NCBI GenBank assembly: GCA_913775315.1
Contig: CAJYIX010000022.1
Location: 112,687 to 176,686 of the forward strand
Reading direction: 5' to 3'
Length of the DNA stretch: 64,000 nt
Origin: an uncultured Sphingomonas sp.
GTDB taxonomy: Bacteria > Pseudomonadota > Alphaproteobacteria > Sphingomonadales > Sphingomonadaceae
In this document: in pieces, positions 5,688-60,564 of the stretch
Numbering within the stretch: the stretch's first letter is position 1
How the letters are laid out: each line of letters starts with the position of its first letter
Made by a program: the position numbers and the translations under genes
Notes under the pieces: model-generated
Told to the model about the DNA's origin: nothing
Database searches by the model: none
What the model saw: the letters and a program-made list of their open reading frames with translations, nothing else

Positions 5688-7922
<2,235 letters not shown>

Positions 7923-7969
7923 CGACCAGCCGCGCGGGATCGCTTCCCGCGCCGGCATTCTCGATCGCG

Positions 7970-8012
7970 ACGACGCCCCCGCGCCTTTCGGTTCGGGGGC
8001 GTCGTTCGTTTG
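7970..8012 (+). terminator. Intrinsic terminator of katG
   Basis: A perfect 12-bp stem, ACGACGCCCCCG (7970-7981) with CGGGGGCGTCGT (7994-8005), closes a 12-nt loop and is followed by a T-rich tail (TCGTTTG). Confidence 0.85.
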
Positions 8013-8048
8013 TGAAGCGCAGTGTCGGCCAGTCGGTGATCTCATCAG

Positions 8049-8103
8049 GATATAAGCATATCTTTATATCAGTATTGACAGGTGTCGCCGGAGCGTGTTC
8101 AAC
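8049..8103 (+). promoter_or_regulatory. AT-rich palindrome plus candidate promoter of the mesX-mesD transcript
   Basis: GATATAAG-CATATCTTTATATC (8049-8070) is an imperfect 22-bp palindrome (GATATAA/TTATATC arms, ATAT centre) that stands out in GC-rich DNA. Five nt further on is a TTGACA -35 hexamer (8075-8080); a weak -10 TTCAAC lies 17 nt downstream (8098-8103). The palindrome resembles, from memory, the ATAT-rich operators of the ArsR-type methionine regulators SahR/SamR. That identification is inference. Confidence 0.5.
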
Positions 8104-8104
8104 G

Positions 8105-8312
8105 GGCGCGTCGAGGTTCCCCATCCCAGGCGTGGCGATGGGGCTAAGACGGGAAGCCGGTGGTGTCCTTCGGGACGGAATCCGGCGCTGCCCCCGCAAC
8201 TGTAAGCGGCGAGCGGCGGCTCCATTTCGCGTCACTGGGCGCCCGCAAGGCGCCTGGGAAGGCCGGAGCCACCGCGTTGACCCGTAAGCCAGGAGACCTG
8301 CCTTCGACGCCA
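8105..8312 (+). promoter_or_regulatory. Cobalamin (B12) riboswitch
   Basis: The leader carries the hallmark blocks in order: GGGAAGCCGGTG, AATCCGG, GCTGCCCCCGCAACTGTAAG (the B12-box core), CACTGGG, TGGGAAGG and GACCCGTAAGCCAGGAGACC. Such riboswitches reduce expression when adenosyl- or methylcobalamin is bound. A downstream hairpin at 8343-8368 (GGATC/GATCC with CGCTT/AAGCG) may belong to the expression platform. The element sits directly ahead of the DUF1852 and core methionine synthase genes, as expected for a B12-independent isozyme that is dispensable when cobalamin is available. Confidence 0.95.
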
Positions 8313-8443
8313 TAACGTTCCTCGGACGGGGGTTCCTCCGGTGGATCGCGCTTGGAAAGCGTTGATCCGTGGCGACCCGCTGCCAGGATCGCCGTCGATG
8401 GGTGCGCTTTCGCCTGACTTCCGTCCGCCAAGACAGGTGAGTC

Positions 8444-9427
8444 ATGACGGACAGCGGCTTCACGTTCACGATCGACAGCATTCCGTTCGACGCGGATTAT
8501 CGTCCCGCCGACAACACGCGGATCACCACCAACTTCGCCAATCTGGCGCGCGGGGAAAGCCGCCGGGCGAACCTTTCCAACACGCTCGTCATGATCGACC
8601 GGCGGTTCAACGCGCTGATGCACTGGGACAATCCCCGGGGTGATCGCTACACGCTGGCGCTCAGCATCGTCTCGGCCGCACTCACGCTCGGCGATGGCGC
8701 GGCGGACGAGCCGTTTCCACTGATCGAGATCCTGCATAGCGAGGTCACCGACCGGATCAGTGGCGAGCGCCACGACGGCATGACCGGCAACAATTTCTCG
8801 TCCTATGTCCGCGACTATGATTTCAGCGTCGTCCTGCCCGATTATCTCCGGGCCGGGGGCAGCGACGCGCCGGAGGGGTTCGGCGACCTCCACGGCAATC
8901 TGTTCAGGCAGTTCTTGGGCTCCGCCGCCTATCGCGACCGTTTCCGCAAGCCCCCGGTCATCTGCCTTAGCGTGTCGAGCAAGGCGGTCTATCATCGCAC
9001 CGCCAACGTCCATCCGATCCTCGGCGCCGAATACCGCACCGACGCGCTGTCGCCGACCGATTTCTATTTCGCGAAGATGGGGATGAAGGCGCGCTACTTC
9101 ATGCCGCCGCACAGCGTCGCGCCGTTCGCCTTCTATCACATCGACGACCTGGTCGGCGGCTACAGCAACCTCGAACTCGCCAGCGCGATTGCGGTGATGG
9201 AGACGTTCCAGAAGATCTACCGCCCCGAAATCTACAACGCCAACTCGGCGGCCGCCGAACACTATCAGCCGAGCCTGGCCGCGCAGGACTATTCGCTGAC
9301 CCGCATCGTCTACGACCGCGAGGAGCGCAGCCGCCTCGCCGTCGAGCAGGGCCGGTTCGCCGAAGCGCATTTCATCAAGCCGCACGCCGAGGCGCTGCGC
9401 CGCTGGTCCGCGACCGCCGGCTGCTGA
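8444..9427 (+). CDS. mesX: DUF1852 protein, partner of core methionine synthase (MesX)
   Basis: A 327-residue soluble protein of the DUF1852 family, with no signal peptide or membrane segment. The start ATG 8444 is preceded by AGGTGA. Published genetics on Acinetobacter baylyi (folate-independent methionine synthase families) showed that the MesD-type synthase needs a DUF1852 protein and oxygen. DUF1852 genes typically sit beside mesD, as here (28-nt gap). The protein is rich in aromatic, His and Asp residues (for example HYRTD-like and FYFAKMGMKARYF stretches), but no known cofactor motif is recognisable. The chemistry is unknown; it presumably helps to generate or deliver the methyl group. 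Confidence 0.85.
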   Translation: MTDSGFTFTIDSIPFDADYRPADNTRITTNFANLARGESRRANLSNTLVMIDRRFNALMHWDNPRGDRYTLALSIVSAALTLGDGAADEPFPLIEILHSEVTDRISGERHDGMTGNNFSSYVRDYDFSVVLPDYLRAGGSDAPEGFGDLHGNLFRQFLGSAAYRDRFRKPPVICLSVSSKAVYHRTANVHPILGAEYRTDALSPTDFYFAKMGMKARYFMPPHSVAPFAFYHIDDLVGGYSNLELASAIAVMETFQKIYRPEIYNANSAAAEHYQPSLAAQDYSLTRIVYDREERSRLAVEQGRFAEAHFIKPHAEALRRWSATAGC

Positions 9428-9455
9428 TCCCCCGCATTCACGAAGGTATTCCCCG

Positions 9456-10484
9456 ATGACGACATTGCTCCCGACCACCACCGCGGGCAGCCTGCCCAAG
9501 CCCGCCTGGCTGGCAGAGCCCGAAACGCTCTGGTCCCCCTGGAAACTGTCCGGCGACGACCTCGCCGCGGGCAAGCAGGATGCGCTGCGCCTCGCGGTCG
9601 ACGACCAGCGGCAGGCGGGCATCGACATCCTCGGCGACGGCGAGCAGACCCGCCAGCATTTCGTCACGACCTTTATCGAGCAGCTGGCCGGCGTCGACTT
9701 CGAGAAGCGCGAGACGGTGCGTATCCGCAATCGCTACGACGCCAGCGTGCCGACCGTCGTCGGGTCGGTCTCGCGCCCCAAATCGGTTTTCGTCGAGGAT
9801 GCACGCTTCCTGCGCGCGCAGACCGACCGGCCGATCAAATGGACGCTGCCCGGGCCGATGACGATGATCGACACGCTGTACGACGCGCACTACCGGAGCC
9901 GCGAAAAGCTGGCCTGGGCGTTCGCCGAAATCCTGAACGAGGAAGCGCGTGAACTGGAAGCCGCCGGCGTCGACATCGTCCAGTTCGACGAGCCGGCGTT
10001 CAACGTCTTTTTCGACGAGGCGAACGACTGGGGCATCGCCGCGCTCGAGCGCGCGACCGAGGGGCTGAAGGCAGAAACCGCGATCCACATCTGCTACGGC
10101 TACGGGATCAAGGCGAATACCGACTGGAAGCAGACGCTCGGCAGCGAATGGCGTCAGTATGAGCAAACCTTCCCCAACCTTCAGAAGTCGACGATCGACA
10201 TCATCTCGCTCGAATGCCGGAACTCGCGCGTGCCGATGGAGCTGATGGAGCTCGTGCGCGGCAAGAAGGTGATGGTCGGCGCGATCGACGTGGCGATCCA
10301 CAACGTCGAGACGCCGGAGGAAGTTGCCGACACGCTGCGCGCCGCGCTTGCCCATGTCGATGCGGACAAGCTCTATCCCGCCACCAATTGCGGGATGGCG
10401 CCGCTGTCCCGCGCGGTCGCGCGCGGCAAGCTCGCGGCGCTGGGTGCCGGCGCGGCGATCGTCCGCGCCGAGCTCTCGGCCTGA
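9456..10484 (+). CDS. mesD: Core (folate-independent) methionine synthase, MesD type
   Basis: 342 residues, corresponding only to the C-terminal catalytic barrel of MetE (about 750 residues) and lacking the folate-binding N-terminal half. The zinc/homocysteine site is intact: His211 and Cys213 in HICYGYG, Glu253 in SLECRNS and Cys312 in TNCGMAPL. The pairing with DUF1852 and the B12 riboswitch place it in the MesD family, which makes methionine from homocysteine without methyl-THF or cobalamin but needs MesX and O2. The methyl donor is not established. It is co-transcribed with mesX. Confidence 0.88.
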   Translation: MTTLLPTTTAGSLPKPAWLAEPETLWSPWKLSGDDLAAGKQDALRLAVDDQRQAGIDILGDGEQTRQHFVTTFIEQLAGVDFEKRETVRIRNRYDASVPTVVGSVSRPKSVFVEDARFLRAQTDRPIKWTLPGPMTMIDTLYDAHYRSREKLAWAFAEILNEEARELEAAGVDIVQFDEPAFNVFFDEANDWGIAALERATEGLKAETAIHICYGYGIKANTDWKQTLGSEWRQYEQTFPNLQKSTIDIISLECRNSRVPMELMELVRGKKVMVGAIDVAIHNVETPEEVADTLRAALAHVDADKLYPATNCGMAPLSRAVARGKLAALGAGAAIVRAELSA

Positions 10485-10499
10485 TCGCCATCGCCTGAT

Positions 10500-10533
10500 G
10501 CCGCTGCGGCTTCCATGACGGGGCCGCAGCGGC
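10500..10533 (+). terminator. Strong stem-loop between mesD and the BASS transporter gene
   Basis: A perfect 11-bp stem, GCCGCTGCGGC (10500-10510) with GCCGCAGCGGC (10523-10533), has a 12-nt loop. No T tract follows, so it may be a weak terminator, an attenuation site or an mRNA processing/stability element rather than a full stop. Confidence 0.5.
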
Positions 10534-10573
10534 CAAGGGGGACGTGCTGCCCCGCACGACCGAGGGACCGACC

Positions 10574-11572
10574 ATGAATGCCATCCTCCGCCGGCTGCGG
10601 ATCGACATCTACATCCTCGCGATCATGGGGATGGTGGCGATCGCCGCGATCCTGCCCGCCCGGGGCGCGGGCAAGGACGTGCTCGATATCGTCGTCCACG
10701 CGGCCATCGCACTCCTGTTCTTCATCTACGGTGCGCGGATTTCGCGTCAGGCGATCTGGGCGGGCATCCTTCACTGGCGGCTGCAATCGCTCGTGTTCGC
10801 AACGACCTTCGTCCTGTTTCCGCTGCTCGGTTTCGGGATCGCCAAGCTTGCGGCGGGGCATCTCGACGCCGGCCTCGTCACCGGGCTGATGTTCGTCGCG
10901 CTGCTGCCTTCGACGGTGCAGTCCTCGATCGCCTTCACGTCGATCGCGCGCGGCAACGTGCCCGCGGCGCTGTGCTGCGCCTCGCTGTCGAACCTGGCGG
11001 GCGTGGTCATCACCCCGCTGCTGGCGACGATGGTCCTGAGCGCCGGGGGCGGTGGCATGTCGCTGGATGCGGTGGGAGAGATCGCGCTCCAGATCCTGCT
11101 CCCGTTCGTGGTCGGCCAGTTCGCCCGCCCGCTGATCGGCGAATGGCTGGAACGACGGCGGACGCTGACGATGGTCGTCGACCGCGGTTCGATCCTGCTC
11201 GTCGTCTATTCGGCGTTCAGCGCGGGCGTCGTCGCCGGCATCTGGGGCCGGGTAACGCCACAGAGCCTCGCGCTCGTCATCGTCCTCGACCTATCGCTGC
11301 TTGCCCTCGTGCTCGCCACGACCACGGTGGCGAGCCGCCTCCTGCGCTTCACCACCGAAGACGAGATCGCCATCGTGTTCTGCGGGTCGAAGAAGAGCAT
11401 GGCGAGCGGCCTGCCGATGGCCAACATCATCTTTCCGGCAAGCGCGGTCGGCCTGATCGTGCTGCCGCTGATGCTGTTCCACCAGATGCAGCTGATGGTC
11501 TGCGCCGCGCTCGCCCGGCGCTATGCGCAGCGGGTCAAGGACGTCATGCCCACGGTCCCCGCCCGGCAATAA
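10574..11572 (+). CDS. Bile acid:sodium symporter (BASS/SBF) family transporter
   Basis: A 332-residue inner-membrane protein with about ten hydrophobic helices; ATG 10574 follows GAGGGA. It carries SBF-like features: FIYGARISRQAI in the second helix region, FVALLPSTVQSSIAFTSIARG in the crossover region, and a late FCGSKKSMASGLPMANII. It resembles the YfeH-type bacterial branch, whose substrates are mostly unknown organic anions. It lies 89 nt after mesD, separated by a stem-loop, so it may be partly co-expressed with the methionine module. Transport of a methyl donor or methionine-related compound would be speculation. Confidence 0.8.
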   Translation: MNAILRRLRIDIYILAIMGMVAIAAILPARGAGKDVLDIVVHAAIALLFFIYGARISRQAIWAGILHWRLQSLVFATTFVLFPLLGFGIAKLAAGHLDAGLVTGLMFVALLPSTVQSSIAFTSIARGNVPAALCCASLSNLAGVVITPLLATMVLSAGGGGMSLDAVGEIALQILLPFVVGQFARPLIGEWLERRRTLTMVVDRGSILLVVYSAFSAGVVAGIWGRVTPQSLALVIVLDLSLLALVLATTTVASRLLRFTTEDEIAIVFCGSKKSMASGLPMANIIFPASAVGLIVLPLMLFHQMQLMVCAALARRYAQRVKDVMPTVPARQ

Positions 11573-11580
11573 CGGCAAGA

Positions 11581-11610
11581 GCGGCGGGCGTGCTGATCCG
11601 CGCCCGCCGC
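11581..11610. terminator. Bidirectional stem-loop between convergent genes
   Basis: GCGGCGGGCG (11581-11590) pairs perfectly with CGCCCGCCGC (11601-11610) around a 10-nt loop, in the 48-nt gap between the convergent BASS transporter and gyrB genes. There is no strong T run on either strand. Confidence 0.65.
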
Positions 11611-11620
11611 CGGTGACCCG

Positions 11621-14101
<2,481 letters not shown>

Positions 14102-60409: not shown

Positions 60410-60550
60410 CCCATGCCATCCCCGGGGGACCGCTGACGCAGCGGTTGAGAGGGTGGCAGGGCACCCATGAAAGTAGTTACTTTCATGGGACCCGATGCAG
60501 CCACCGACCCGCTGAACCTGATCCGGCTGACACCGGCGTAGGGAGGGAGC
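60410..60550 (+). promoter_or_regulatory. TPP (thi-box) riboswitch
   Basis: The thi-box core is present: GCTGACGCAGCGGTTGAGA, then GACCCGCTGAACCTGATCCG, GCTGACACCGGCGTAGGGAG. Inside, an unusually AT-rich and perfectly paired stem, CCCATGAAAGTA/TACTTTCATGGG (60464-60489, only GT between), forms the optional P3 extension. It lies about 50 nt upstream of thiC and should reduce its expression when TPP is plentiful. Confidence 0.95.
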
Positions 60551-60564
60551 GGCCCCGCCAATGA

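Follow-up and report, generated by a model that had tools for sequence, protein, structure and literature searches.

An upstream palindrome and a cobalamin riboswitch lead into the mesXD methionine synthase pair of an uncultured Sphingomonas: a probable double switch

What decides whether a cell makes its methionine by MetH or by the oxygen-requiring pair MesX–MesD? The question is raised by the genes mesX and mesD (together mesXD), which with their leader occupy positions 8049–10484 of a 64,000-nt stretch of DNA from an uncultured Sphingomonas sp. (GenBank assembly GCA_913775315.1, contig CAJYIX010000022.1), the whole of which is called the window below. According to the part of Price 2021 (PMC7857596) available to us, MesD requires MesX and O2 and neither methyl-tetrahydrofolate (methyl-THF) nor cobalamin (vitamin B12); both genes are needed by Sphingomonas koreensis without cobalamin, and the pair works together, aerobically, in E. 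coli. A preliminary description of the locus, made from the letters of the window, had summarized the published enzymes in agreement with that part of the paper, and had proposed that a cobalamin riboswitch confines their use to cobalamin scarcity. The analysis reported here makes it very probable that mesXD serves cobalamin-free methionine synthesis in a sphingomonad that probably scavenges B12, and that it stands under two switches in series, namely an upstream operator and the riboswitch.

Two elements ahead of mesXD

The gene mesX (8444–9427, + strand, 327 aa) matches PF08908 ('Putative oxygenase MesX', formerly DUF1852) with 514.9 bits against a cut-off of 25, covering profile positions 3–323 of 323, and mesD (9456–10484, +, 342 aa), the core methionine synthase, begins 28 nt after it. 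PF01717 (129.3 bits) is the sole Pfam domain of MesD, the N-terminal folate domain being absent, and the protein scores 664.2 bits with the NCBIfam model NF006589 (PRK09121.1, methionine synthase; cut-off 392) and 620.6 bits over residues 3–341 with 3RPD, the closest solved structure, which Price 2021 treats as a MesD in the part available to us (PMC7857596). Alignment to 3RPD located the zinc residues H211, C213, E253 and C312, an intact site as described earlier, and the homocysteine residues S12, E63 and D178, all seven of which are invariant across 31 MesD sequences. In each of the 121 other loci that were compared, mesX is directly followed by mesD, with a mere mesX fragment in L007, where the last ~70 MesX residues precede a nearly full-length mesD match; extra MesX fragments, one with an internal stop, were also seen in another genome (G276, C1:2175963–2176446).

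The cobalamin riboswitch proposed at 8105–8312 was recovered by cmscan at 8098–8319 (+) as RF00174, with 109.1 bits (E 2.1e-26; gathering score 31.5) over the full model, 1–189, and it leads into mesX as proposed. Under R1, a covariance model built in this work from 18 sequences with the window's own among them, the same RNA scored 199.7 bits. On the two points that the preliminary description had named as decisive, the RNA scores as a cobalamin riboswitch and the synthase sides with MesD, not with folate-type MetE. R1 was applied to 80 named loci, chosen as the top MesX matches, of which the nearest to the window are Sphingomonas; in 20 of them it placed a riboswitch just upstream of mesX and in the same orientation. 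The aptamer loop L5, CUGCCCCCG (8188–8196, +), is identical in 20 of the 21 riboswitch loci, window included, the sole departure being L060 with CUGUCCCCG. Directly 3′ of the aptamer lies a candidate P13-like hairpin, CGGA-CGGGGGTTCC-TCCG (8323–8340, +), whose loop CGGGGG (8327–8332) is complementary to CCCCCG of L5 (8191–8196); about 100 nt separate this region from mesX. A perfect-stem hairpin of at least four pairs with a GGG-holding loop stands right behind the aptamer in 18 of the 21 loci (absent in L057, L058 and L066), and its stem letters vary between lineages while the loop CGGGG matches CCCCG of L5. Aptamer, L5 and the CGGGG loop are conserved in Sphingomonas, Brevundimonas, Devosia, Ochrobactrum and one Pseudomonas locus. 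The stability of the local fold was no better than that of shuffled sequences, and it is the conserved loop and its complementarity to L5 that argue for the hairpin.

The preliminary description missed a 22-nt palindrome, GATATAAGCATATCTTTATATC (8049–8070, no strand), though its own start coordinate falls there. The element is two mismatches away from the perfect palindrome GATATAAAGATATCTTTATATC and is directly followed by TTGACA (8075–8080, +), both being conserved in an alignment of ten leaders (the window and L046–L054, among which L050 is the similar leader of Sphingomonas aquatilis DSM 15581); by this leader conservation alone TTGACA is likely the −35 element of the mesXD promoter, with no −10 assigned. 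At up to three mismatches the palindrome occurs at three places genome-wide and its reversed pattern at none, and in the window 8049–8070 is the sole site at up to five mismatches of the 20-nt core. Besides mesXD, the sites lie 60 nt ahead of ahcY (TIGR00936, 589 bits) and just ahead of the start of a 320-aa protein with HTH_5 ArsR and Methyltransf_11 domains, followed by metF and a split metH. A helix-turn-helix of the ArsR type joined to a methyltransferase domain is what we take to be the make-up of the alphaproteobacterial SahR. In the accessible part of PMC4239095 (Leyn 2014), the core SahR regulon comprises sahR, ahcY, metH, metH2, metF and metK, and SahR regulons are given for 7 of 7 Sphingomonadales and 4 of 4 Caulobacterales; in that of PMC8877191, a SahR motif is predicted in Ensifer ahead of sahR, ahcY, metH, metK and bhmT. 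The palindrome is thus placed as in the SahR regulon, ahead of ahcY and of the SahR-type gene that metF and metH follow, and mesXD would join this regulon with the riboswitch as a second gate (compare PMC4239095, in the same part). The palindrome is probably bound by a SahR-type ArsR-family regulator, whose identity, ligand and direction of action at the operator we infer.

Counting the operator over 81 loci (20-nt core, at most four mismatches, within 600 nt upstream of mesX) yielded 19 of the 21 loci with a riboswitch versus none of the 60 without; the best match of the reversed 20-nt pattern had seven mismatches. Among 11 further loci the operator accompanied four of the five riboswitches and was missing from all six loci that have none (reversed pattern, six mismatches at best). 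These counts indicate that operator and riboswitch travel together. Regarding the earlier proposal that the route is used only when cobalamin is scarce, the cobalamin part fits the usual sign of such riboswitches and would stand, but the word 'only' needs qualifying, since with a SahR-type operator just upstream B12 is probably not the sole input. From its leader, mesXD looks doubly gated, by the state of the methyl cycle and by B12.

The host genome and the spread of the arrangement

The host genome (3.25 Mb, 44 contigs, 98% complete) contains a split MetH and MetF, as well as a second, weak match to the methylenetetrahydrofolate reductase (MTHFR) family (C13:158894–159424, 48 bits), and no MetE over the cut-off in the genome, where the sole TIGR01371 match is mesD itself. 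S. koreensis likewise has a split MetH, MetF and no MetE, according to the accessible part of PMC7857596. CbiC, the one marker of corrin-ring synthesis searched for, was not found in this draft assembly. One more cobalamin riboswitch, the only one in the genome besides that of mesXD, stands ahead of genes for a TonB receptor, a periplasmic binding protein and a FecCD permease, the receptor having the vitamin B12 receptor model as its best NCBIfam match, at 223 bits and below the cut-off of 600. With the two riboswitches placed on mesXD and on this uptake-like operon, B12 is predicted to regulate its own uptake together with mesXD. The organism is probably a B12 scavenger, unable to make B12, and the lack of a MetE over the cut-off and of CbiC, together with the riboswitch on the uptake-like operon, makes mesXD likely its B12-free methionine route.

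MesX is sparsely distributed. Within the family 12 of 397 genomes have it, one of them as a fragment; the order gave 4 of 196, counting that fragment again, and an even draw from the phylum 44 of 398, with the window's own genome included in each count. The 20 named riboswitch loci comprise ten Sphingomonas-type (one titled Arthrobacter), seven Brevundimonas-type, among them one with the bare title Alpha proteobacterium, and single loci of Devosia, Ochrobactrum and Pseudomonas parasichuanensis. Rfam agreed with R1 on seven of the 20 and on six loci without a riboswitch, and an Rfam scan of 39 further loci detected a riboswitch in five. In a tree built quickly from 70 MesX sequences, 22 of the 25 members of the window's clade carry the riboswitch. 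On the same tree 'Arthrobacter sp. TPD3018' (L048) stands beside Sphingomonas aquatilis, and 'Bacillus subtilis SK6B4' (L122) beside Pseudochrobactrum, in both cases with very short branches.

A MesX relative was found in 209 of 72,556 plasmid records. One of them, the plasmid NZ_CP101723.1 (L138; 275,887 bp, typed as mobilizable), comes from Sphingomonas sp. NY01 and carries the operator (0 mismatches), the riboswitch, mesXD and an acyl-CoA thioesterase together; IS66 genes lie close by, and another cobalamin riboswitch is located at 8314–8561 (−). Carriage on plasmids, such as this mobilizable one, could explain the patchy spread of mesXD. Three Rhizobium-type loci hold a cobalamin riboswitch that points away from mesX (L075:4571–4784, L090:4457–4666 and L092:4576–4789, all −), with a LysR-type gene further on. 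Two Acinetobacter loci contain a C4 antisense RNA (RF01695) behind the mesXD region (L083:7894–7979 and L100:7893–7977).

A two-switch model and its rivals

The elements themselves, how they are arranged and conserved, and the operator common to the three genomic sites are observed, and they suggest the following mechanism. As judged from the anatomy, the SahR-type regulator on 8049–8070, beside the promoter, would let go as S-adenosylhomocysteine (SAH) accumulates, and the same release would take place at its own metF/metH cluster and at ahcY. At the riboswitch, whose structure is evident, bound cobalamin would cause L5 to kiss the P13-like loop and mesX to be off, while in its absence the leader would be read and mesX expressed; that cobalamin represses mesXD is taken from the usual behaviour of such riboswitches. 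As published for homologues, MesX with O2 and probably reduced flavin would then supply a methyl group from some central metabolite, and the zinc enzyme MesD would transfer it to homocysteine; for this pair the enzyme chemistry and the role of O2 are presumed to be the same. Under the model, MetH, which stands under the same operator, would make methionine when B12 is present, the riboswitch vetoing mesXD, and without B12 the common demand signal would open mesXD instead. The shared operator and the riboswitch veto would thus let B12 pick MetH or MesXD, and in a genome where neither a MetE over the cut-off nor CbiC was found, mesXD should decide methionine synthesis when no B12 is imported. 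A close parallel is the Priestia megaterium metE, which in the accessible parts of PMC9600662 and PMC10653944 is under a cobalamin riboswitch with the same logic and the same L5–L13 anatomy, with the difference that a tandem SAM (S-adenosylmethionine) riboswitch accompanies MetE there, whereas here a SahR-type operator stands in front of MesXD.

Several points weigh against this model. A consensus promoter scan of 7900–11700 returned one site, inside mesX (8472–8500), and none at 8049–8098. Three riboswitch loci are exceptions to the operator rule, their best matches having 5 (L062), 10 (L071) and 9 (L011) mismatches. The 80 named loci, as best MesX matches, are a biased sample in which relatives are not independent; the riboswitch label needs only five changes on the MesX tree versus 21.3 in shuffles. 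CbiC is a single marker, and the assembly is a draft. As for the riboswitch output, a possible hairpin (8406–8443, +) around the mesX ribosome-binding site (AGGTGAG, 8435–8441) has 95.2% of its alignment cells paired, with zero double (compensatory) changes, and four single folds gave no clear gain over shuffles (best z −1.42). It was left as a weak candidate for the output, and the riboswitch may consequently act via either translation or transcription.

This weak hairpin leaves some room for the riboswitch being activating, or an effectless relic, with mesXD governed by the upstream operator alone. L5–L13 kissing loops are known from repressing corrinoid riboswitches and from a published activating one (PMC10653944, accessible part), so the sign at mesX is inferred. 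We nonetheless regard this alternative as very unlikely, because the aptamer, L5 and the CGGGG loop are kept across several genera and repression fits a B12-independent isozyme. In addition, B12 addition lowers the DUF1852 gene, a mesX homologue, in two strains of A. baumannii by log2 8.3 and 8.1 (PMC12892962, accessible part), apparently by other means, since two loci of other Acinetobacter (L083 and L100) carry no cobalamin riboswitch; with such a ~300-fold repression, another B12-linked control may exist in Acinetobacter. It is also quite unlikely that the palindrome serves a regulator other than a SahR-type protein. Its symmetry is broken by the two mismatches, and the SahR assignment comes from the genes next to its three genomic sites and not from a match to the published matrix, which is a further point against the model; yet the places are only three, and the other two precede the SahR-type cluster and ahcY, both published core SahR targets. 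That MesD represents a MetE of the folate type reduced to its catalytic half can hardly be credited at all: it does match the C-terminal part of TIGR01371, but with 111.4 bits (108.4 in the genome search) where 929.95 are needed, versus 620 bits to the MesD 3RPD, it adjoins mesX in all of the 121 other loci, and nothing else in the genome matches the MetE model.

MesX might be an ordinary two-component flavin monooxygenase, e.g. luciferase-like, fed by a flavin reductase. A flavin reductase gene was indeed found near mesXD in 36 of 80 loci (BLAST with complete open reading frames of at least 100 aa; one identified by Pfam), and flavin was predicted in the accessible part of Price 2021, which also reports such a gene nearby (PMC7857596); in the window, by contrast, none lies near mesXD, and the genome's only PF01613 match sits on another contig. 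Against it, an AlphaFold2 model of MesX from 72 sequences was confident (predicted local distance difference test, pLDDT, 86.5; predicted template modelling score, pTM, 0.88), the alignment being shallow at 61–83% identity to the window's protein, and Foldseek, as the one aligner, returned nothing at E ≤ 0.001 from the PDB and the viral library BFVD, cellular-model libraries lying outside the search. A control model of MesD from 31 sequences (pLDDT 84.0) gave 57 PDB matches in the same search, with 3RPD first, and the known flavin monooxygenase folds are well represented in that database. No solved relative emerged for MesX from the sequence search at E up to 1, and when PDB sequences were searched with a profile, the single match, at E 0.25, was put down to chance. 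A full-length resemblance to oxygen-dependent coproporphyrinogen oxidase (rank 19, E 0.78, template modelling scores 0.18 and 0.22) was at noise level and was rejected. With Pfam at E up to 5, no second family recurred among the 72 MesX members, the additional matches being LpxR in three (best E 0.0018) and others in one or two members. The ordinary monooxygenase is therefore rather unlikely, and as judged from the model MesX may have a fold of its own.

Neighbouring genes, prior work and meaning

Under the two-switch model a further gene attracts attention, namely an acyl-coenzyme A (acyl-CoA) thioesterase with hotdog domains that lies near mesXD in 9 of 80 loci and on the L138 plasmid. Its best NCBIfam match was YciA, below the cut-off, in the six tested. 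By position every one of these genes falls under a cobalamin riboswitch, i.e. under its own in L046 (3449–4225), L051 (3474–4247), L067 (3556–4476), L069 (3582–4499), L116 (2113–2922) and L138 (2435–3199), or behind mesD in the riboswitch-led L055, L060, L062 and L063. The thioesterase is possibly a partner in B12 scarcity that frees CoA when methylmalonyl-CoA mutase stalls. Of 26 genomes, 25 have this B12-dependent mutase family, whether or not a thioesterase is encoded close to mesXD, which makes its presence uninformative for this idea. A bolder combination is speculative and, in our estimate, doubtful: MesX would be the first seen member of an oxygen-using class with its own fold that frees methyl groups from a common metabolite, and sphingomonads and brevundimonads would own an SAH- and cobalamin-gated set for B12 scarcity, including in some genomes the riboswitch-controlled thioesterase.

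About 60 nt behind mesD, an SBF-like transporter (PF13593, 320.8 bits; 10544–11572, +) is possibly part of the same transcript, its link to mesXD being uncertain; it could be a carrier for the MesX substrate or product. Relatives were seen near mesXD in 4 of 80 loci (L046 and L047, 86–87% identical; L066, 51%; L061, 50%). Upstream, the peroxidase gene katG (PF00141, 5688–7922) was ruled out as a member of the unit: between its end at 7922 and the mesXD leader lies a terminator-like hairpin at 7981–8002 (the terminator scan gave two such hairpins vs a mean of 1.7 in shuffles), and a katG relative is near mesXD in 1 of 80 loci (L106). Elsewhere in the window, a thiamine pyrophosphate (TPP) riboswitch was detected at 60413–60561 (59.7 bits).

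The MesX and MesD enzymes are already known, as is the principle of an isozyme under a riboswitch. Price 2021 dealt with MesD/MesX of S. koreensis and Acinetobacter baylyi, the same two families with the same zinc and homocysteine residues; the word 'riboswitch' is absent from its main text, and the part available to us describes no upstream operator, such as the window's mesXD has (PMC7857596). The operon had already been placed in methionine regulation, as mesXD is here, in the accessible part of Leyn 2014 (PMC4239095), where PF08908–metE2 is a predicted MetR target and metE2 a genome-specific predicted SahR target; three SAM/SAH riboswitch families were scanned there, not cobalamin, and the main text lacks the terms 'cobalamin riboswitch' and 'B12 riboswitch'. 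In the accessible part of PMC13059711, MesD is linked to the ability of two strains to tolerate N2O. In the open-access literature, with regulon databases and most subscription journals outside the search, we found no link between a cobalamin riboswitch and MesX, MesD or DUF1852, nor the predicted pairing of such a riboswitch with an operator of the SahR type at mesXD.

The same literature gave no answer on the source of the methyl group of MesX, and the double switch offers a handle for finding the donor. If the two predicted native switches, B12 and SAH, are true, they would provide an on/off system in the enzyme's own host, in which the donor could be traced by labelling, and since no structural relative was found, a crystal structure of MesX is worthwhile. 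If the model is true, it would be B12 supply, besides gene content, that decides the methionine chemistry of these aerobic bacteria.

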